In this document: positions 1-9,834 of the stretch, piece by piece
Layout: the number at the start of each line of letters is the position of its first letter
How positions within the stretch are numbered: position 1 is the stretch's first letter
Assembly (NCBI GenBank): GCA_002350065.1
Contig: DEDQ01000040.1
Coordinates: 1-12,143, forward strand
Length of the DNA stretch: 12,143 nt
Direction: 5' to 3'
DNA from: Ruminococcus flavefaciens
Lineage (GTDB): Bacteria > Bacillota > Clostridia > Oscillospirales > Ruminococcaceae
The notes under the pieces: generated by a model
The model's input: the letters and a program-made list of their open reading frames with translations, nothing else
What the model was told of the DNA's origin: nothing
Databases searched by the model: none
Position numbers and translations under genes: made by a program

Positions 1-1347
1 ACCGGCCGCTGCTGCGCTGACAACGTTCTCGCAAGCAATCCCGGCGCTGAATTCTGGGGCTCAAGGCCTGCAAATTCGCTCTACAATGCGGCAGGTCAGA
101 AGATTGGCTCGAAAGTTCCTGCGATGAACTTCCTCATCTACTGGGACGGCGACCTCGAACGCGAAATTCTCAACGATATCTACATCGATGAGATGTCATC
201 AACTACCGATATACATAATATCCTCAAGGCTACTGGATGCGCTTCAAACAATGGCACAAAGGCTGTTCCGTGCTGCACCGCCGATCTCTTCGGCGACTGG
301 CGCGAGGAGCTCATTCTCCGCACAGAGGACAACTCCAAGCTCCGTATCTGGTGTACAAATACCGAAACCAAGTACCGTCTGACTACTCTCATGCACGATA
401 TGCAGTACCGTATGCAGTGCGGCTGTCAGCAGAGCTCATACAATCAGCCTCCGCATCCGAGCTTCTATCTCGGCACAGAGGCTCAGCTCCCCGCAAGACC
501 CAACATCAAGCTCAACAACACTCCTCCCGAGCCGATAAGCGGCAAATACATCAAGAACCTCAACGTCCTTGACAGAGAAAATATGCTCGCATGGCAGCTC
601 TCAAAGTCCTCCGACATCGGCTCTCTCATCTACGGCGACAGAGACTTCACCTATACCGAGCTCCCTGAATCCCTCAGAGGCAAGGAAGCTATCATGACTG
701 CCTGCAACTCCAAGAATACATTCGCCGACCTCGCTGAGTTCACTGCAAGCGAAAACATCGACGTTTTCGTCCTCGTCGATACAAGAGTCGAGGACGCCGG
801 AAACGTTCCCGCATGGCTCAGCAGCTACGAGAAAACTTCCATGACTGCCGCTTCCAGCAACGAAGTCAGATTCAGCGTCTACAAAAAGACCTTCAACGGC
901 GGCGAGAAGGTAGAGCTCGGTCAGAACGGAATGAACGGCAACTGCATCAACTATACCGTATTCGTTGACTCTGTACCAGTTGCAACAACAACAACAACCA
1001 CAACTACGACAACTACCACGACTACCACTACAACGACGACTACTACCACAACAGTAACAACAACATCTACAACTACTTCTGAAACGACCACAACTGAAAC
1101 TACTACTACCTCAACTGCCGATAAGGTACTCCTCGGTGATGCCAATGAAGACAAAAGCGTAACCGTTGCCGATGCTGTAACTATCCTTCAGTACCTCGGA
1201 AACCGCGACAAGTATGCTCTCTCCGAGACCGGCAAAAAGAACGCTGACTGCTTCAATCCCGGTGACGGAATTACCGGTATGGACGCTCTCGCTATACAGA
1301 AGCTCGACGCCGGACTTATTACGTCCCTTCCCGAGCTCAGCCAATAA
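1..1347 (+). CDS. Rhamnogalacturonan lyase (PL11) with C-terminal dockerin, 5' end missing
   Basis: This is the 3' part of a secreted PL11-type lyase that cleaves the rhamnogalacturonan I backbone of pectin by beta-elimination. The frame is open from base 1, so the first ATG at 124 is internal and the true start lies upstream. PL11 hallmarks include NFLIYWDGDLEREIL (about 127-171), SNNGTKAVPC, ADLFGDWREELILRTED and YNQPPHPSFYLG (ending near 474). A second domain (about 535-975; DRDFTYTELP, TACNSK, PAWLSSYEKT, FNGG..ELGQNG) matches a beta-rich accessory module seen C-terminal to other secreted pectinases. Then come a Thr linker (985-1116) and a type I dockerin (about 1123-1330). Its first calcium loop, DANEDKSVTVAD, is canonical. 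The second (1246-1284) has one extra residue, as in some R. flavefaciens dockerins. The dockerin implies attachment to a cohesin-bearing scaffoldin on the cell surface. Family assignment is from recognised motifs. The catalytic residues were not identified. Confidence 0.9.
   Translation, partial: TGRCCADNVLASNPGAEFWGSRPANSLYNAAGQKIGSKVPAMNFLIYWDGDLEREILNDIYIDEMSSTTDIHNILKATGCASNNGTKAVPCCTADLFGDWREELILRTEDNSKLRIWCTNTETKYRLTTLMHDMQYRMQCGCQQSSYNQPPHPSFYLGTEAQLPARPNIKLNNTPPEPISGKYIKNLNVLDRENMLAWQLSKSSDIGSLIYGDRDFTYTELPESLRGKEAIMTACNSKNTFADLAEFTASENIDVFVLVDTRVEDAGNVPAWLSSYEKTSMTAASSNEVRFSVYKKTFNGGEKVELGQNGMNGNCINYTVFVDSVPVATTTTTTTTTTTTTTTTTTTTTTTVTTTSTTTSETTTTETTTTSTADKVLLGDANEDKSVTVADAVTILQYLGNRDKYALSETGKKNADCFNPGDGITGMDALAIQKLDAGLITSLPELSQ
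985..1116 (+). repeat. Poly-threonine linker coding tract
   Basis: Twenty-three consecutive Thr codons (985-1053) are followed by V, then Thr blocks broken by S and E up to about 1116. All four Thr codons (ACA, ACC, ACG, ACT) are mixed without a fixed period above 3. The protein is homopolymeric but the DNA is not a perfect microsatellite. It encodes the flexible, probably O-glycosylated, extracellular spacer between the lyase modules and the dockerin. Confidence 0.9.
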
Positions 1348-1356
1348 GTTTATTTG

Positions 1357-1387
1357 TCCCGACTGCATTTGCAGTCGGGATTTTTTT
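1357..1387 (+). terminator. Rho-independent terminator of the lyase gene
   Basis: A perfect 10-bp stem (TCCCGACTGC, loop ATTT, GCAGTCGGGA) is followed at once by seven T's. It starts 10 bases after the lyase stop codon and separates that gene from the DGC promoter at 1422. Confidence 0.95.
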
Positions 1388-1421: not shown

Positions 1422-1450
1422 TTGATTTTTTCTCTTTAAAATGGTATAAT
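1422..1450 (+). promoter_or_regulatory. Sigma-A-type promoter of the DGC-SBP operon
   Basis: TTGATT (1422-1427), a 17-base spacer and TATAAT (1445-1450) form a near-consensus housekeeping promoter. Transcription would start near 1457 and leave a leader of about 55 bases before the ATG at 1513. The RBS AAAGGAG sits at about 1501-1507. I see no riboswitch-like fold in this short leader. Confidence 0.8.
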
Positions 1451-1512: not shown

Positions 1513-3024
1513 ATGTCTAAAGGGGATAATAGTATTGCAAGCCCGCAAAAGGTCAACCGTCAGTTGTTCTCAATGGTCATTGGCTATGCGGTGATAATCG
1601 TTATCGTTATACTCACTGTTACTAATCTCGCTATTAAAAAGACCGATAACGTGCTTCAGGACAAGGTCGTTTCAATGTCGTCGTCACTCGATGTGCAGAT
1701 GAAACTAAATATGAACAGCTACCTCGCCCGTATGGAATCTCTCGGAACTATCGCCTTCAGCGAGGAGAAAACTTATACTTACGACGCTACTGACCCAAAC
1801 AACGACGAGTACGAAGCTCTCAATACTGAAAAGGCTATCACAGAGAAGCTCTACAGTCTTTGCATTATGGAGAATTTCGTCGATTACGGTATCGTCTACA
1901 GAAATAACCGCACCGTAGGAAAAATATCAAACGGCACATCTTCACTATTCGGTGACCGTATGTTTGAGGAGCTGAGCACCATGATAACCCGTCAGAGAAC
2001 TAACGACGGCTGGTGCGCAGGTTATCAGGACAATTTCAAAAGGATTTACTACGTAAAGCGTGTCCACGACAACGCTCTTCTTGTGCTGTCCTTCTACACA
2101 AGCGAGCTCGAATCCGTATTTGACAACCCCGAGACCCTGGACGATATGGATATCCGCCTTGTAAACAAGGATTACAATATCCTCTATTCCTCAAGAAAAG
2201 AAGAATCCGGAAAACCTCTGCCCACACCTATCCTCGAACGTGTAAAGGGTAAGACCTCGGCTTCTGTTATGGACGACAATTATCTCGTTTCAGTAAGCTC
2301 TTGCGGCGAGGAATGGTACATAATATGCTCTATCCCGACTGATATCATTCTCAGGGAAAAGAATGACATGAGCCTCTTTATCTTCATGGTAGGAGCTATA
2401 GCCGCTATCGTTGCGATGCTTATGTGCGCCGTTTTCTCAATAAAGATGACCGAGCCGGTAAAACAGGCTGTCGCTTTTCTCAATACAAGAGCTACCAACG
2501 ACCAGCTCACTGGCATTCTCAACAAACAGGCATTCAGCGAATCCTCGGCAAGGCTCATCACCTCGGCTTCGGACGGAGCTGAGCACGCAATGATACTCCT
2601 CGACCTTGACAACTTCAAGGGTATCAACGATTCTCTAGGTCATGCATACGGCGATAAAGTCCTTGCTAAGACTGGAAGTATCCTCCGTGCGGAATTCTCA
2701 AACGAGGACTTCATCGGCAGAGTCGGCGGAGACGAGTTCTGTGTTCTCGTGAACAGTATCCCTTCCGGCAATGAAACTGATTATAAGGACTTCATCATCA
2801 GCAAATGTCAGTCGCTTTGCCGGACCTTCGGCGAAAACTACACCGGCGAGGACGGCACCTACAAGGTCTCGGTAAGTATAGGTGTTGCAATGTTCCCTTC
2901 GGACGGCAAGACATTTGAGGCTCTGTTTTCGGCTGCGGACAAGGCTCTCTACAAATCCAAGCATAAAGGCAAGGATACCTATTCATTCTACGAAAATGAT
3001 GATACGGAGGTGGCTGACAAATGA
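1513..3024 (+). CDS. Membrane sensor diguanylate cyclase (GGDEF)
   Basis: The product is predicted to condense two GTP into the second messenger c-di-GMP. TM helix 1 (residues about 20-42) and TM helix 2 (about 287-309) flank an extracytoplasmic region of about 240 residues that resembles a dCache-type sensor. The cytoplasmic GGDEF domain follows directly (about 327-495) without an obvious HAMP. Catalytic features are intact: DLDNFK with metal ligand D364, substrate residues N372 and D381, and GGDEF at 405-409. The RxxD inhibitory I-site, expected five residues before the signature, reads SNED (396-399). Arg is replaced by Ser, so product feedback at that site is probably absent. There is no EAL or HD-GYP domain. 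The stop codon overlaps the start of the sugar-binding protein gene, which suggests coupled expression and a shared function. The start is set by the AAAGGAG motif upstream. Confidence 0.93.
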   Translation: MSKGDNSIASPQKVNRQLFSMVIGYAVIIVIVILTVTNLAIKKTDNVLQDKVVSMSSSLDVQMKLNMNSYLARMESLGTIAFSEEKTYTYDATDPNNDEYEALNTEKAITEKLYSLCIMENFVDYGIVYRNNRTVGKISNGTSSLFGDRMFEELSTMITRQRTNDGWCAGYQDNFKRIYYVKRVHDNALLVLSFYTSELESVFDNPETLDDMDIRLVNKDYNILYSSRKEESGKPLPTPILERVKGKTSASVMDDNYLVSVSSCGEEWYIICSIPTDIILREKNDMSLFIFMVGAIAAIVAMLMCAVFSIKMTEPVKQAVAFLNTRATNDQLTGILNKQAFSESSARLITSASDGAEHAMILLDLDNFKGINDSLGHAYGDKVLAKTGSILRAEFSNEDFIGRVGGDEFCVLVNSIPSGNETDYKDFIISKCQSLCRTFGENYTGEDGTYKVSVSIGVAMFPSDGKTFEALFSAADKALYKSKHKGKDTYSFYENDDTEVADK

Positions 3025-4286
3025 AAACCTTCAGCAGAATAGCCGCCTCAGCGGCTGCGCTCGCCCTTATCCTCGAATGTGGCTGCGGGCATAAACAGAT
3101 CGTAACATCTCAGCACGAACAGACCGAGATAACTCTCTCGTGGTGGGGCAACGACAGCAGAAACGAGTACACTCTCGAGGCTGTTGAGCTCTTCAAGCAG
3201 CAGCACCCCGATATAAAGGTGAAATGCAGCTATTCGGAATGGTCAGGATATGAGGCAAGAAGCCGAATTCGCATGATATCCGATACCGAGGCTGACGTTA
3301 TGCAGATAAATGTCGGCTGGCTGGGTCAGTTCTCGGCTGACGGCACGGGTTACTATGACCTCAGCAAGGTCTCGGATTACGTGGACCTCTCCAGCTTCCC
3401 CGACGAAATCCTAAGCTACGGCACAAGAAACGGCATCCTCAACGCTGTCCCTATCGCTATGAACGCCGAAACTGTATACATAAACAAGTCCATTTTCGAG
3501 GAGCACGGACTTGAAGTCCCCGTCACATGGGACGCTCTGTTCAAGAGTGCAGACGTGCTCAGCAAGGATAATATCTATCCCCTCTCCGGAGCTTCAAAGG
3601 CTATCTGGCTCTACTGCATCACCTACACCGAACAGAAAAACGGCAAAACTATCCTCGATGATAAGGGAAATTTCGCCTTTACTGAAAAAGACTGGGAAAC
3701 TGCTGTCGATTTCTATATACGAATGGTCGATAAAAAGGTCATTCCGCAAATCGAGAACTTCAAGAAGGTCAACATCGAAAAAGGCGAATACGCCGGAGCT
3801 GTCGCATGGGTCAGCGATGCGATAAACTATTTCGACTCAACTCAGAAGAACGGCGATGAGGTCATTGCTGCGGACTATACCGCTTTCACTCCCGAAAGCA
3901 GCGGCACAGGCTGGTACGAAAAGCCCGCGACCCTCTACGCTATCAGCAAGAACACCGACCACCCGAAGGAAGCGGCTATTCTGCTCAATTTCCTGCTCAA
4001 CAGCAAGGATATGGCTCAGCTTCAGGGAGTCGAAAAGGGTATCCCCATAAGTCAGACAGCCCTGAATACCCTTGATAAAAAAGGTATGCTCAGCGGTTTG
4101 CAGTACGAAGCTTCAGAGATGATGAACTCGAATGATAAGCTCAGGGAAATGGACCCCGTTCTCGAAAATAACGACATTATCAACGATTTCTTCAGCACCT
4201 GCAACCTCGTGATGTACGACAAGGCTTCGCTCGAAGAGGCAGCCTCGGGATTCTATACCGCACTTAATGAGAAAAACCTCCAGTAA
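3021..4286 (+). CDS. Orphan family 1 extracellular sugar-binding protein
   Basis: This is an ABC-type solute-binding protein of the SBP_bac_1 (MalE-like) class. Family features are the N-terminal ITLSWWGNDSRNEYTLEAV (residues 37-55), FKQQHPDIKVK, MQINVGWLGQF (94-104), YINKSIFEEHGL..P.TWD (153-171), and a late segment typical of these proteins (KNTDHPKEAAILLNFLLNS). Its length of 421 aa is normal. A hydrophobic signal (residues 6-18) precedes C20 and C22, but E19 breaks the classical lipobox for both, so lipid attachment is uncertain. The ATG overlaps the DGC stop (ATGA), with GGAGGTGG at 3006-3013 inside the DGC gene. No transporter permease or ATPase is adjacent: the next gene is an unrelated phospholipase-like protein with its own promoter. 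Import function would need a distant permease. A sensory role with the DGC is the alternative. The ligand is unknown; plant-derived oligosaccharide is an inference. Confidence 0.88.
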   Translation: MKTFSRIAASAAALALILECGCGHKQIVTSQHEQTEITLSWWGNDSRNEYTLEAVELFKQQHPDIKVKCSYSEWSGYEARSRIRMISDTEADVMQINVGWLGQFSADGTGYYDLSKVSDYVDLSSFPDEILSYGTRNGILNAVPIAMNAETVYINKSIFEEHGLEVPVTWDALFKSADVLSKDNIYPLSGASKAIWLYCITYTEQKNGKTILDDKGNFAFTEKDWETAVDFYIRMVDKKVIPQIENFKKVNIEKGEYAGAVAWVSDAINYFDSTQKNGDEVIAADYTAFTPESSGTGWYEKPATLYAISKNTDHPKEAAILLNFLLNSKDMAQLQGVEKGIPISQTALNTLDKKGMLSGLQYEASEMMNSNDKLREMDPVLENNDIINDFFSTCNLVMYDKASLEEAASGFYTALNEKNLQ

Positions 4287-4375: not shown

Positions 4376-5416
4376 ATGAGCGCTTTAAGAGACTCTGCAA
4401 AACAACTGCGCGAAATGGCGAAAAAGTTTTTGTCCGAAAGGGATTCTGAACCTAAATGCGTTCACCGTACCCTGCTTCTCAGGTCACTTATAATCCTGAA
4501 AAATATATGTCCCGAAACAGAAGAGTTCTTCGCCCCTATCATGAAGAATCTCATGCCATACGCCAAACGCCCCGACAGAAAAGGTGACTACGAAAACGGT
4601 GCCGGCAGACATTACTACTGCGCACTCAGCCTCAGCGGCAGGGAGCTTCCGACTGTGAACACCTACTACCGCAACGGCATAAAAAGATATACCAAAAGCG
4701 CACGTACCATGTTCGAGGAGGACTACACCATGGCGCTGACTATGCAGCGCGCCGGATACATGGATATGTGCGGAAAATTCCTCGGCAGAGCCGTTCATAT
4801 GCTCTCGGATATGTGCTGCCTGCCGCATACAGCCTCTATGACCTATTACTCTTTCGGCAGAGGCTTCCACAAAGCTTATGAGGACCTCGCCGAAGCAATA
4901 TACCCTGAGCTCGTGCCCGAGCAGCTGCCGGATAAGCTCCCGGAGATATTCAAGTCACGCGAGAGCTTCGCAGATGACCTGAATAAGATAGTCCTCGAGA
5001 CGGCAGGAGGTCTAACTGCTGTACAGACCGCTCCGCTCGACGCTGTTAAGGAGCATCTCCTGCGGACTGAACGTATCGTTGCTGCACTGCTGCTCAGATT
5101 CTATGAGGACCTGACAACTCCCGAGAGAAAGGCTCATTTCATCACCAACGGCTCCGGCTGCAAGCTCCTGAAGGGAACAGCGCCCCTCACTATCAAAGTG
5201 ACCGGAAAGGGTATTTCTCTACACGGCGTGAACCCCTCACCTGATTCAAAGGTAAACGTTACAAACATGGTCTTCTACGCCGCTCACCGGCATAACGGAC
5301 TGTTCACGCTCTCTCCTGCCAAGGACAACGACGGAAGAGTGCTTGAAGTTTCCCACGGCAAGCTCGTTCTCAGGAAATTCGACCCGCTCCACAGCGAGCA
5401 GCTTTTCAGACTATAA
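4376..5416 (+). CDS. Zinc-dependent phospholipase C-like protein, no signal peptide
   Basis: The N-terminal two thirds match the alpha-helical zinc phospholipase C / alpha-toxin fold. Eight metal ligands occur with family spacing: H30, D67, H79, H141, D145, H151, H165 and E169. Gaps H141-D145-H151-H165-E169 (4, 6, 14, 4) equal B. cereus PLC H118-D122-H128-H142-E146. D67-H79 (12) equals C. perfringens alpha-toxin D56-H68. The match is from memory, not an alignment run. Known relatives are secreted and use the mature N-terminal Trp as a further zinc ligand. Here there is no signal peptide, and an in-frame TAG at 4361 with AAAGGAG at 4364-4370 fixes the ATG. The protein is thus predicted to be cytosolic or exported unconventionally. 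The C-terminal ~105 residues are beta-like and end in GRVLEVSHGKLVLRKFD..HSEQLFRL, faintly like a ricin-type beta-trefoil repeat. The substrate could be a phospholipid or another phosphoester. Confidence 0.8.
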   Translation: MSALRDSAKQLREMAKKFLSERDSEPKCVHRTLLLRSLIILKNICPETEEFFAPIMKNLMPYAKRPDRKGDYENGAGRHYYCALSLSGRELPTVNTYYRNGIKRYTKSARTMFEEDYTMALTMQRAGYMDMCGKFLGRAVHMLSDMCCLPHTASMTYYSFGRGFHKAYEDLAEAIYPELVPEQLPDKLPEIFKSRESFADDLNKIVLETAGGLTAVQTAPLDAVKEHLLRTERIVAALLLRFYEDLTTPERKAHFITNGSGCKLLKGTAPLTIKVTGKGISLHGVNPSPDSKVNVTNMVFYAAHRHNGLFTLSPAKDNDGRVLEVSHGKLVLRKFDPLHSEQLFRL

Positions 5417-5549: not shown

Positions 5550-7421
5550 TTATTGATATGTAAGACCTGTTCCGGCTTTGAACCAGCATTTGTCCGTGCC
5601 TATCTGGTCTGTCGAGCTGTACCACGGACTCGGGAGCTTGCCCTTGAAGTCAGAGCCTCCGCAGAGTACGTCAGCAATACCCTGTCCCTCCGAGCCAGGA
5701 AGGTAACACATAACAACGCTGTTCCACGAATCATAGTCGTCCTTGTCGATGATGACCTGTCTGCCGGCAACTATGCAGGTAACGACAGGCTTTCCAAGCT
5801 TTTCTACTTTCTTTATCGAGTTAAAATTGCCCGTGAGAGCCATTTCACCAAGAAGCGACATATCCTCGGAATCACCAAGCCACTCAGCATAGCTCTTTTC
5901 GCCTACTGCAAGGAGAACTACGTCCGCATCATCAGCATCGTCCTCATCTGTGAGGACCGTTATGCCGTACTCCTCTGCCTTCTGTCTGAAGCCTTCAAGA
6001 ATAGTTGTAACGCCCTCGATATCCTTTTCGGGGCTTGAGAGCCAGTCGACCGTCCAGCCGCCGCACTGCGCCTGAGCATTATCAGCCGCGGGACCTGTTA
6101 TATAAATCTTCGCGCCCTCCTTGAAAGGGAGTATATTATCGTCATTTTTAAGGAGGACAAGACTCTCCTCAACAAGCTGCTCCGCGACGTCACGGTATTC
6201 GTCAGAGCCTGTCTCGGTCTTGACAGTTTCAAGCTTCTCGCAGAACGGGTCATCAAATACTCCAGCATTCTGCTTCACGCGGATTATACGCGTAACTGCA
6301 TCGTCAATTCTGTCCTCTGATATCTTACCCTCTTCAACTGCGGATATGATTATCTTCTTTGCTTTTTCAAAGTCATCGACCTCCATGAGCATATCTATCC
6401 CCGCATTTACAGCATTGATGACCTGCTCTTCATAAGTCGAGCCAGAGGTGTTCTGAACGGAATTCCAGTCGCTGACTATGAATCCCTCGAATCCGTATTC
6501 TTCTTTGAGACGCTTGATATACTTGCCGTTTTCATGCATTTTCACGCCGTTGAGTGAAGAATGACTTATCATGATCGTCTGTGCTCCGGAATCTATCTGA
6601 GCCTTGTATACCTTCATCAGCTCTTCTATTTCAGCCTCTGAAAGAGAAGCGTCTCCGCGGTCGATAAGTCGTTTTGTATCAGAATCTTCACCTGTGCCGA
6701 ATCCGACATTTCCGTCAGCGATGAAATGCTTTGTGCAGGCGATAAGTCCGCCGTCGACAAGTCCCTTTGTATACGCCGTGCTCAGGTTCTTGATGATCTC
6801 GAGGTCAGAGCCGTAGCTCTCGTAGGTACGTCCCCAGCGAGGGTCAACGGACTGAGCAACGCAGGGAGCAAAGTTCCAGAGCATATGACAGAGCTTTGCC
6901 TCATCGGCTGTGATAAGTCCGGCCTGATACATGAGTGCCTCGTCGTTCGCGGCTCCGAGACCGATATTATGCGGGAAGATAACAGTTCCCGAGCAGTAAT
7001 TCACGCCGTGAACGTCGTCCTGACCGTAGATGAAAGGTATGCCGGCAGGAGAATCAACTGCGCTCTGCTGATAGCTCTTGATAGTCTCACGCCACTCCTC
7101 GGCGTTGTAATAGTCCTTCTGAGAGAGGATTCCGCCGTAATCGTAGAGCTCCATATCCTCCTCTGATACGGACCTGATCTGCGGGAGCACCATCTGAGCC
7201 GCTTTCTGCTCGAGAGTGAGCGAAGCTGTGACTTCATCGGGCTCTAACGAATTATAATACTGACACTTTGTGAGCGTAGGCTCGGTGCGCGGAAGTGTCG
7301 TTGAAGCGGCTGTGGTCGTTTCAGGCTTTGAAGAGCTCGCAGTTTCCTTTTGGCTTTCGCACGATGCAAGCGAGACAACAAGACCTAATGCAGCAATAAG
7401 AGCAATGGCTTTTGTTTTCAT
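5550..7421 (-). CDS. GH3 beta-glucosidase-type surface lipoprotein
   Basis: This is a retaining exo-acting glycoside hydrolase of family 3, 623 aa. An N-terminal signal with lipobox LASC (lipidated C21) and a Ser/Thr-rich spacer (residues 28-50) place it on the outer face of the membrane. The catalytic barrel shows GQDDVHGV (133-140), DPRWGRTYESYG (193-204), KHFIADG (231-237) and the nucleophile motif SDW with D318. The C-terminal sandwich domain has VGEKSYAEWLGD (506-517), the usual place of the acid/base, probably E508. KHFIADG instead of KHFPGHG, plus the second domain, argue for a beta-glucosidase/exoglucanase type rather than NagZ. It is the last gene of the minus operon, 24 bases after the SGNH gene, with AAAGGAG at 7430-7436. 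It probably releases terminal beta-glucosyl (or xylosyl) units at the surface. The exact sugar cannot be read from sequence. Confidence 0.92.
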   Translation of the reverse strand: MKTKAIALIAALGLVVSLASCESQKETASSSKPETTTAASTTLPRTEPTLTKCQYYNSLEPDEVTASLTLEQKAAQMVLPQIRSVSEEDMELYDYGGILSQKDYYNAEEWRETIKSYQQSAVDSPAGIPFIYGQDDVHGVNYCSGTVIFPHNIGLGAANDEALMYQAGLITADEAKLCHMLWNFAPCVAQSVDPRWGRTYESYGSDLEIIKNLSTAYTKGLVDGGLIACTKHFIADGNVGFGTGEDSDTKRLIDRGDASLSEAEIEELMKVYKAQIDSGAQTIMISHSSLNGVKMHENGKYIKRLKEEYGFEGFIVSDWNSVQNTSGSTYEEQVINAVNAGIDMLMEVDDFEKAKKIIISAVEEGKISEDRIDDAVTRIIRVKQNAGVFDDPFCEKLETVKTETGSDEYRDVAEQLVEESLVLLKNDDNILPFKEGAKIYITGPAADNAQAQCGGWTVDWLSSPEKDIEGVTTILEGFRQKAEEYGITVLTDEDDADDADVVLLAVGEKSYAEWLGDSEDMSLLGEMALTGNFNSIKKVEKLGKPVVTCIVAGRQVIIDKDDYDSWNSVVMCYLPGSEGQGIADVLCGGSDFKGKLPSPWYSSTDQIGTDKCWFKAGTGLTYQ

Positions 7422-7445: not shown

Positions 7446-8423
7446 TCAATCAGTCGAAACGTGTTCGGTCTTTTCTGTGGAAGCTTCTGTTGCGGATTCG
7501 GACGAAGCCTCTGTAGAAGCAGCTGTCGCCGGAGCAGTAGTTTCCGGCTCGGGAACGGGAACGGTCTTTGTGCAGAGCCATTCACACCACTGAGTATAAT
7601 ACATCGCTACAGGGTGAACGCCATCGGAGGTATAGCCCTCGTTCAGAGCTCCGTGGTCGTCGTCGTAGAGCTCATTTATGTCGATATAGAATACGCGTTT
7701 ATCGTCCGCAAGAGTTGCTATCGCATTATTGAGCGAGTTTATCCCGCTGTTATTGATGACCTTGTCCTCGGCAGAAGCCGAAACGTGGAGGTTCGCCTGA
7801 AGGAAAACAAGAGCTTCCGGCTGCTTCTCCATGACCTTTTCAACAAGCGAACGATAGGCTCCGAGCGTGTACTCGAAATCGTTGCCGACTTCGTTGATAC
7901 CGAGCATTATATAGATCTTGCCGAATTTACCGTCGGTAAGGATATCGTCAAGCGATTTTCCTCCAACCTTGGCTTCGTCTATCCTGCACGCCGAGAATCC
8001 CGGCTCGCAGAAGAAGACTGAGTTTTTGAAGGTGCCGTATTCCTTTATGCCGACTGTTCGCGAGTCTCCGATAAAGAGCGCGTCATCAAAATATGACGGG
8101 TCGCTTGTGACGAAGAGCTCGGGCTGTTTTTTTGCTTCGGAATTGGTGGTATCTGCTGCGGTGGTCACGATCATCGGCTTGGGATTATCATCTGCCTCGG
8201 TCGTAATTATATCAACCGGACCCATTGTATGCTCCTGTACCTTGTCAATTACCGAGCTGTCGGCTGAGAGCCTGCCCTCGGTCTTTACCACGAGCGGCGG
8301 AGACTGTGTCTGCTTCTTAGCATCAGAGCTCGACTTCCATATCTGGTGAAAAATGAGCGGAGACGCTACAAAGCAGGTCGCAGCGAGAAGAACTGTGTAG
8401 GCGGACTGTTTGAATCTATTCAT
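7446..8423 (-). CDS. Membrane-anchored SGNH/GDSL hydrolase or O-acetyltransferase
   Basis: A single N-terminal hydrophobic segment (residues 8-26) anchors a disordered region (30-110) and an extracytoplasmic SGNH domain (about 112-285). Block I is FIGDSRTVG with nucleophile S121. Block II has oxyanion Gly in EPGFSA, block III is LGINEVGND with N177, and block V is SDGVHP with D267 and H270, so the catalytic set is complete. The C-terminus (287-325) is a low-complexity Pro/Glu then Thr/Ser/Ala/Glu tail. SGNH proteins paired with an MBOAT protein typically move acyl groups (as PatB or AlgX/AlgJ) or remove them. The MBOAT gene ends 16 bases upstream, and the RBS AAGGAG (8436-8441) overlaps its stop, so translation is probably linked. 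Role inferred: transfer of acetyl delivered by the MBOAT protein to an extracellular glycan. Acetyl-esterase activity is the alternative. Confidence 0.87.
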   Translation of the reverse strand: MNRFKQSAYTVLLAATCFVASPLIFHQIWKSSSDAKKQTQSPPLVVKTEGRLSADSSVIDKVQEHTMGPVDIITTEADDNPKPMIVTTAADTTNSEAKKQPELFVTSDPSYFDDALFIGDSRTVGIKEYGTFKNSVFFCEPGFSACRIDEAKVGGKSLDDILTDGKFGKIYIMLGINEVGNDFEYTLGAYRSLVEKVMEKQPEALVFLQANLHVSASAEDKVINNSGINSLNNAIATLADDKRVFYIDINELYDDDHGALNEGYTSDGVHPVAMYYTQWCEWLCTKTVPVPEPETTAPATAASTEASSESATEASTEKTEHVSTD

Positions 8424-8439: not shown

Positions 8440-9834
8440 TTAGAATCTGAAATACATGAAGGGGTCGTTCATTCCCTTGTAGATACAGTAAACTGAAAGC
8501 CAGAATACCGCGAGCAATACGAGCTTTATCGCTATCGTATCCTTTATCTTTTTATATATGCGCTCCGGAAGGTCAGTCGAGAAAACTGCTCCCGCGAGGA
8601 AGAATTTCCAGTATATGCCAAGATATTTGAGGTAATCGTGTTCGAGCACGGGGTAAGTCTGCTGAGGTATGAACGGGAGCAGACGGCAGAAGTAAACTCC
8701 GAGCTGGCTGATATCAGTAACGGCGAAAATCAGCCATGTCAGCGGTATCACAAACAGCATATAGAGGTGTCCGAGCACCTTGAAGCGCTCAAGGTATTTC
8801 CCGATAACGAAGCGTTCGAGCATAATAAGTGCAAACAGCACCATTCCCCAGATGATGAAATTCCAGCTTGCACCGTGCCATAAGCCTGTAAACGCCCAGA
8901 CGATGAAATAATTCCGTATCGTTTTCAGCTTGCCGCATCGGCTTCCTCCGAGCGGTATGTAGATATACTCCCTGAACCACATTCCGAGCGTCATATGCCA
9001 GCGGCGCCAGAATTCGCCCATAGTGAGCGACATATAGGGGTGATCGAAGTTTTTCGGGAGCTCAAATCCCATGATCTTTCCAAGTCCTATCGCCATGTAG
9101 GAGTATCCGCAGAAGTCGAAATAGAGCTGGAATGAATATGCTATGATGCCCATCCATGCGAGCGGAACTGATATGCTGTGGAATCCGATGTTGCCGATAT
9201 CGCTCCACAAGCCGCCTATCTGGTTAGCTATCAGGACTTTGAAGCCGAGTCCGATAGTGAAGGTCTTGAGTCCCTCCTCAATCATTGCCGCAGTATGCTT
9301 TCTGTGACGAAGCATACGCGAAACTATCCTGAATTTTACGATCGGTCCGGCGATGAGCTGCGGAAACATACTTATATATGCGCCGTAGCTGATGAAATTC
9401 GATTCAGCCCTTGCCCTGCGCCTGTAAACGTCTATGAGGTACGAGACGCTCTGGAAGGTGTAAAAGCTTATGCCTATCGGAAGGATAATGTCCTTTACAG
9501 GAAGATGCGCATGGAAGAGCGCGTTGATATTCTCGAACAGGAATCCGGTGTACTTGAAGAATATAAGCCACCAGAAATTGAAAACGATACCGACCGTAAG
9601 CCATAGCTTGCTCGCCTTGCGGAAATTATAAATAAACTCGCCGATTATGAAATTGAACAGGATAGTCAGGAGAAAAAGCAGGATATAAACAGGTCTGCTT
9701 ATTGCTCCGACGCTGTAGAAGATCACGCTTCCGGCGAAAATCGTTGCATTTTTATATTTTTTCGGAACAAGTCCGTATACCAGCATAAATGCAGGGAGGA
9801 ATATAAACAAAAATTCCAAGCTGCTGAATACCAT
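8440..9834 (-). CDS. MBOAT-family membrane O-acyltransferase (AlgI/PatA/DltB-like)
   Basis: This 464-aa polytopic membrane protein has many hydrophobic helices spread over its length. MBOAT signatures are clear: PIGISFYTFQSVSYLIDVYR (119-138), FPQLIAGPI (157-165), FDFCGYSYMAIG (239-250), FWRRWHMTLGMWFREYIYIPLGG (275-297) and TGLWHGASWNFIIWG (316-330) with the invariant His H320. The family moves acyl groups, usually acetyl from acetyl-CoA, across the membrane to an extracellular acceptor. It is the first gene of the minus operon, with AAAGGGTGG (9839-9847) just upstream of the ATG. Coupling to an SGNH protein fits polysaccharide or peptidoglycan O-acetylation. DltB is less likely because no dltA, dltC or dltD-like gene is present here. 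The target polymer is unknown. Confidence 0.94.
   Translation of the reverse strand: MVFSSLEFLFIFLPAFMLVYGLVPKKYKNATIFAGSVIFYSVGAISRPVYILLFLLTILFNFIIGEFIYNFRKASKLWLTVGIVFNFWWLIFFKYTGFLFENINALFHAHLPVKDIILPIGISFYTFQSVSYLIDVYRRRARAESNFISYGAYISMFPQLIAGPIVKFRIVSRMLRHRKHTAAMIEEGLKTFTIGLGFKVLIANQIGGLWSDIGNIGFHSISVPLAWMGIIAYSFQLYFDFCGYSYMAIGLGKIMGFELPKNFDHPYMSLTMGEFWRRWHMTLGMWFREYIYIPLGGSRCGKLKTIRNYFIVWAFTGLWHGASWNFIIWGMVLFALIMLERFVIGKYLERFKVLGHLYMLFVIPLTWLIFAVTDISQLGVYFCRLLPFIPQQTYPVLEHDYLKYLGIYWKFFLAGAVFSTDLPERIYKKIKDTIAIKLVLLAVFWLSVYCIYKGMNDPFMYFRF

Follow-up and report, generated by a model that had tools for sequence, protein, structure and literature searches.

In a 12,143-base stretch of Ruminococcus flavefaciens DNA (the window, which is the entire contig C28 of a 2.08-Mb, 74%-complete metagenome-assembled genome, MAG), overlapping genes encode a membrane diguanylate cyclase and a solute-binding protein (SBP). 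The two probably encode one receptor, with cyclic di-GMP (c-di-GMP) reporting pectin breakdown products. In fibre-degrading gut bacteria akin to Ruminococcus, joint sensing of plant-wall sugars is suggested because the cyclase gene precedes the gene for a surface SBP that resembles pectin-fragment binders, and no sugar-transporter genes accompany them. In the proposed mechanism, the SBP, probably anchored outside the membrane as a lipoprotein, would bind a pectin-derived oligosaccharide; the closed SBP would then dock on the cyclase's dCache-like domain; docking would change how active the GGDEF dimer in the cytoplasm is, and c-di-GMP would thereby signal pectin fragments. Physical docking of the SBP on the outer domain is presumed, as are the sign of the effect and the output, which may be attachment or surface enzymes.

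The cyclase gene (1513..3024, forward strand) encodes 503 residues, in which Pfam, an AlphaFold model and inspection by eye place a first transmembrane (TM) helix, a dCache-like outer domain, a second TM helix and a GGDEF domain. The latter (PF00990, residues 328-488, E 3.5e-37; 2494..2976, forward strand) has an intact motif and lacks the RxxD inhibitory site, with SNED in its place; an Arg occupies the RxxD position in 5/89 relatives with an intact GGDEF domain. Genome-wide, the MAG contains 27 GGDEF matches. The SBP gene (3021..4286, forward strand) encodes a lipoprotein-like, TogB-type sugar-binding protein of 421 residues (SBP_bac_1, E 7.1e-25), an orphan SBP. Its Shine–Dalgarno sequence, GGAGGTG (3006..3012, forward strand), lies within the cyclase gene, and the stop and start codons share the four bases ATGA (3021..3024, forward strand). 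One sigma-70-like promoter, TTGATT-17-TATAAT with TG before the -10 element, lies upstream (1422..1450, forward strand); it is a consensus match only (10/12 positions), and such sites are barely commoner than chance (8 found, 4.2 expected from shuffles). With this qualification, the original prediction of a GGDEF–SBP_bac_1 pair with a four-base overlap and one shared promoter-like site is borne out. Across 123 non-redundant pairs, the -4 spacing occurs in 67 and any overlap in 90; these counts are upper estimates because the rule for picking starts favoured ATGA.

Both by sequence and by fold, the window SBP is closest to the oligogalacturonide-binding TogB/ECA2210, and it belongs to the TogB type, with 31-32% identity to TogB. 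Among pectin-derived oligosaccharides, the likeliest ligand would be an oligogalacturonide, saturated or 4,5-unsaturated, or else a closely related uronide.

The original prediction had also given the cyclase two TM helices and a Cache-like outer domain. Two hydrophobic segments, located by eye at about residues 18-41 and 287-310, do flank an extracytoplasmic stretch of some 230 residues; in the predicted model, residues 45-275 (1645..2337, forward strand) form the dCache-like sensor domain that is the proposed docking site for the SBP. The Cache part of the claim finds no family match in the window sensor itself: none of the Cache families for which it was scanned scored at E up to 5. Weak dCache_1 matches were obtained for 10/33 homologous sensors (best E 0.002), the window sensor not being among them, and the next-nearest homologues that the sensor profile picks up beyond the family are dCache_1 chemoreceptors and YesM-type kinases. 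In the AlphaFold single-chain model (predicted local distance difference test, pLDDT, 85.4; predicted template-modelling score, pTM, 0.54), the secondary structure reads as a long helix, a PAS-like half, a second PAS-like half, a long helix and then GGDEF, an order that suggests a double Cache fold. When the full-length cyclase model was searched by fold, GGDEF structures made up most of the best 50 rows, and a chemoreceptor model (9a69, rank 42) was the single row pointing to a Cache; because GGDEF structures swamped the matching to solved structures, we infer the dCache assignment. In an NCBIfam scan, nothing but the generic GGDEF domain model exceeded the cut-off.

The two genes travel together. 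Paired-type SBP genes were sought in 125 genomes of the genus (E < 1e-100); 80 were found, and a broad gap sets them apart from a second SBP type (31-37% identity among the matches listed). All paired-type loci except the window's own (79) were taken, together with 20 of the listed second-type loci, and a set of related loci was formed by keeping 80 of 143 relatives. Of the resulting 160 stretches (the window plus 80 plus 79, the latter two sets overlapping in species), the SBP gene directly follows a sensor gene in 154, the sensor gene of one (L168, G018) being split by a frameshift; in the remaining six, an end of the stretch lies no more than about 1,010 bases from the SBP start. The converse search, with cyclase residues 1-318 against the same 125 genomes, excluded one 20-bit match, counted two pieces in G018 once, and gave 80 sensor genes in 68 genomes: the identical 68 that hold the SBP. 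Adjacent pairs number 77/80, and the three unmatched SBP genes and three unmatched sensor genes come from three shared genomes, where SBP and sensor lie on separate contigs. Pairing goes beyond chance, given this two-way match.

A sample of 396 genomes from the taxonomic family gave sensor matches in 58 genomes and 18/126 genera, weak matches counted. From 78 listed sensor matches, 40 loci were taken, and the SBP is directly downstream in all 40, including 20 loci with sensors merely 18-30% identical; in one (L275) the SBP is broken in two, and in another (L302) it was found by tblastn. Outside the family, 394 genomes of the order yielded no strong sensor match (best 39 bits), and 391 genomes of the class yielded two, in two other families (G956, G1152), both beside an SBP gene; the pair is therefore mainly a family-level trait. 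A Ruminococcus-type pair also occurs in a record titled Alistipes senegalensis (L089), where the contig is probably misbinned.

As the original prediction had stated, no permease and no ABC (ATP-binding cassette) ATPase is found among the eight window proteins scanned, the view ending with the contig. Permease profiles, built from the two permeases of the second SBP type and detecting sugar-type permeases only, found CUT1-type permeases in 0/163 pair loci (totalling 1.81 Mb; 155 of them are non-redundant and have a called SBP) and in 20/20 loci of the second, paralogous type, with the same outcome for filtered open reading frames (ORFs) and for all six-frame ORFs. The pair is thus conserved without permeases of this kind, as the original prediction anticipated, and the complete ABC operon in relatives that would have told against it was not seen. 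In six second-type loci, 12/12 scanned permeases belong to BPD_transp_1, and 6/6 third genes to PF07470, a family covering the uronyl hydrolases of GH88 and GH105. ABC_tran was found in 3/113 scanned neighbour genes. At one locus (L032), a gene of amino-acid-type SBP_bac_3/permease kind, invisible to the sugar-type profiles, adjoins the pair.

SBP and sensor also covary. In 103 intact pairs, distance correlations are 0.83 for SBP and sensor, 0.56 for SBP and GGDEF, and 0.52 for sensor and GGDEF, the latter two being on one chain; equal-length column samples give 0.80, 0.55 and 0.50, respectively. The bootstrap difference between the SBP–sensor and SBP–GGDEF values is 0.27 (0.18 to 0.36). Column couplings at z>4 (effective number of sequences, 75) amount to 0.33% for SBP–sensor, 0.08% for SBP–GGDEF and 0.09% for sensor–GGDEF; the top ones are confined to few positions, mainly SBP 78, 82, 190, 197 and 365 and sensor 81, 125 and 204-208. 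Of the 12 genus genomes that carry two pairs, 11 show a better fit for true than for swapped partners, and one shows no difference. For 19 divergent pairs, the SBP correlates at 0.91 with the sensor and at 0.85 with the GGDEF remnant.

The enzyme domain is frequently decayed. The 123 non-redundant pairs comprise 89 with GGDEF, 24 without the motif (degenerate), nine without a GGDEF domain (sensor-only) and one frameshifted; with family loci added (n=157), there are 103 intact, 25 degenerate, nine sensor-only, one frameshifted and 19 divergent pairs, the GGDEF motif being absent from all 20 divergent sensors taken. The predicted sugar-to-c-di-GMP module fits the window pair, with its intact GGDEF domain and TogB-type SBP; it is not valid for every relative, because the motif or the domain is missing in 53/157. 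In the SBP tree (99 rows: 36/103 intact, 15/25 degenerate, all nine sensor-only, 19 divergent and 20 transporter type), paired and transporter SBPs are separated (100/100), and degenerate and sensor-only copies form a single clade (100/100); the divergent group is weakly supported (91/70). Sensor-only copies are one group (95/80) nested among the degenerate ones, from which it follows that loss of the cyclase leaves sensor and SBP paired. The share of columns conserved at 95% is 37% for the SBP, 32% for the outer domain and 4% for GGDEF in degenerate pairs, against 23%, 23% and 26%, respectively, in intact pairs. Each of the 12 two-pair genomes holds one intact and one degenerate GGDEF copy (for example L054/L076, L162/L217 and L166/L216), suggesting that the two copies share out the work or form hetero-oligomers.

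Several observations weigh against this receptor model. Neither gene is present in 57/125 genus genomes. In 23 degenerate pairs, the SBP tracks the GGDEF remnant (0.94) more closely than the sensor (0.88), so linkage explains a good part of the co-phylogeny. The few positions in the strongest couplings may mark one subclade, so that these couplings may partly be a clade effect, and the intact sensor is conserved no better than GGDEF (52/231 and 42/164 columns at 95%). A conserved pectin neighbourhood was considered as a general rule and rejected: in scans of 113 of the 223 adjacent genes and of 57 of the other 110, with figures drawn from the 25 commonest families of each scan, the pectin-related families among the matches listed are GH127 in two and RGL11_C in one. 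PilZ and MshEN were searched for in the 74%-complete MAG, and neither was found. Finally, the MAG has three CUT1-like permease pairs, and for the third, at the end of contig C51 (18,500-22,585), no SBP was recognised in the 4.1 kb read.

This last pair bears on the possibility that the SBP feeds a permease encoded elsewhere, the overlap merely co-expressing uptake with signalling. We give that explanation a low probability, even though the sister lineage of SBPs does serve ABC transporters. The other two MAG permease pairs come with their own binding-protein-like genes (L029, and L359 on contig C29, the latter gene matching a cellobiose-binding protein at 4e-7), and for this reason a dedicated distant permease for the paired SBP is unlikely; moreover, the paired SBP clade is split from the transporter SBPs, was found in no genus genome that lacks the sensor, and covaries with the sensor in intact pairs. 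The MAG's other SBP_bac_1 domain lies in a 981-residue frame that has a long N-terminal region and is followed by permease-like genes (G000:C51, L029, L364).

A second possibility is that the dCache domain binds a small ligand of its own, the SBP adding sensitivity. Direct ligand binding is common among dCache domains, and CuaD offers a precedent: cellobiose is perceived by both CuaDSR and CuaSR (in the excerpt of PMC10384115). Against this, no sensor gene in the genus occurs in a genome without an SBP gene, and the two are nearly always adjacent, which an independently sensing Cache domain would not need; we think this explanation improbable. A third possibility concerns the ligand. The likeness to TogB may be ancestral, with specificity drifting between clades, and the SBP would then bind something other than pectin fragments. 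The modest identity to TogB leaves room for such drift, divergent pairs adjoin VWA genes in seven scanned loci, and pectin genes are not general neighbours of the pairs; a different ligand is a real, if minority, possibility, and one compatible with the pair acting as a receptor.

A wider interpretation can be advanced only tentatively, and as a whole it is doubtful: the pair would represent a large receptor family, so far undescribed, among fibre-degrading Clostridia, with SBP plus dCache-like sensor as the conserved unit and an expendable cyclase. When pectin fragments are sensed, intact copies would make c-di-GMP; paralogues whose GGDEF is degenerate or deleted would tune the intact receptor as catalytically silent partners or as ligand-gated decoys, or, alternatively, would pass the signal to a neighbouring EAL phosphodiesterase. 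EAL and GGDEF head the 113-gene scan of neighbours (10/113 each), and VWA heads the 57-gene scan (7/57). A same-strand upstream EAL gene occurs in 9/84 intact, 9/24 degenerate, 0/7 sensor-only and 0/19 divergent loci among those open to examination, these counts being lower bounds from filtered ORFs. At L189, L190, L193, L205, L226, L228, L231 and L235, a GGDEF–EAL gene lies upstream on the same strand as the sensor gene (Pfam-checked in L189 and L226), sometimes with a four-base overlap, and may belong to a three-gene c-di-GMP operon. VWA genes of about 780 codons stand beside the divergent pairs L273, L276, L277, L278, L280, L281 and L288; six of the seven carry TSP3 repeats, and the products are possible surface adhesins. 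A search for c-di-GMP-I riboswitches gave no match in any control genome and is hence uninformative.

At its start the window cuts into a gene for a PL11 rhamnogalacturonan lyase, of which the contig retains the C-terminal part (1..1347, forward strand; RGL11_C in Pfam, E 3.5e-57). Its product ends in a Thr-rich linker and a dockerin-like tail, the latter recognised by eye; Pfam made no dockerin call. An intrinsic-terminator-like hairpin with a T run follows (1356..1381, forward strand; 11-bp stem, seven G-C pairs), although such sites are barely commoner than chance (4 found, 3.0 expected from shuffles). The pectin lyase neighbour of the original prediction exists, as a rhamnogalacturonan-type enzyme; its adjacency is not general, and its gene is probably a separate transcription unit from the cyclase–SBP pair. 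In the window's subclade, pectin-related neighbours are RGL11 (window, L162) and a GH127-dockerin gene (L031). Downstream of the pair, a 346-residue protein (4376-5416) belongs to no Pfam or NCBIfam family and is 75-77% identical to the product encoded just past the pair in L031, L160 and L162. On the reverse strand follow genes for a GH3 enzyme (5550-7421) and for a GDSL esterase (7446-8423) adjoining an MBOAT acyltransferase (8440-9834); the last two resemble a polysaccharide O-acetylation pair.

For most c-di-GMP enzymes, it is not known which input signal they respond to. The pair offers a defined candidate ligand class and a defined receptor for SBP-dependent control of c-di-GMP, and its relatives, with the output domain intact, degenerate or deleted, form a natural series for studying such control. 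If the proposal is true, whether cells of this gut and rumen lineage attach or produce surface enzymes would be linked to pectin breakdown. A literature search at the level of listings found no description of this SBP–cyclase pair, and among the listed papers on c-di-GMP with R. flavefaciens no such receptor appears by title or abstract start. Among known systems, ScrB–ScrC of Vibrio parahaemolyticus is quorum-linked, GGDEF–EAL and proteobacterial. An excerpt of PMC11113362 cites a 2011 paper on SBP activation of diguanylate cyclases and phosphodiesterases.

LuxP–LuxQ and ChvE–VirA had been named as the nearest precedents; NspS–MbaA and CuaD–CuaSR are closer. In NspS–MbaA of Vibrio cholerae, SBP ligand occupancy sets enzyme activity, and the coding regions overlap (excerpt of PMC8967002). 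Like the window pair, this system, as far as the excerpt describes it, joins a binding protein to a membrane c-di-GMP enzyme through overlapping genes, an analogy of mechanism only; a homologue from Sinorhizobium meliloti also appears in the literature. The window family shares with systems of this kind the conserved adjacency of SBP and c-di-GMP enzyme genes and an SBP outside sugar-type ABC operons. NspS–MbaA has a polyamine ligand, GGDEF plus EAL output and the SBP gene first, in a Gram-negative host, whereas the window pair has the sensor gene first, a TogB-type, lipoprotein-like SBP and GGDEF-only output. In Ruminiclostridium cellulolyticum, the SBP CuaD binds the kinase CuaS to give a three-component cellobiose system (excerpt of PMC10384115). 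Both CuaD–CuaSR and XylFII–LytS resemble the window pair, to the extent that the partial sources describe them, in that a clostridial sugar SBP is encoded beside a membrane sensor; their output, however, is through a kinase (two-component), while that of the window pair would be c-di-GMP, and the proposed ligand class also differs from that of CuaD–CuaSR. TogB, for its part, is an ABC transporter component, whereas the window SBP gene is an orphan tied to a signalling protein.
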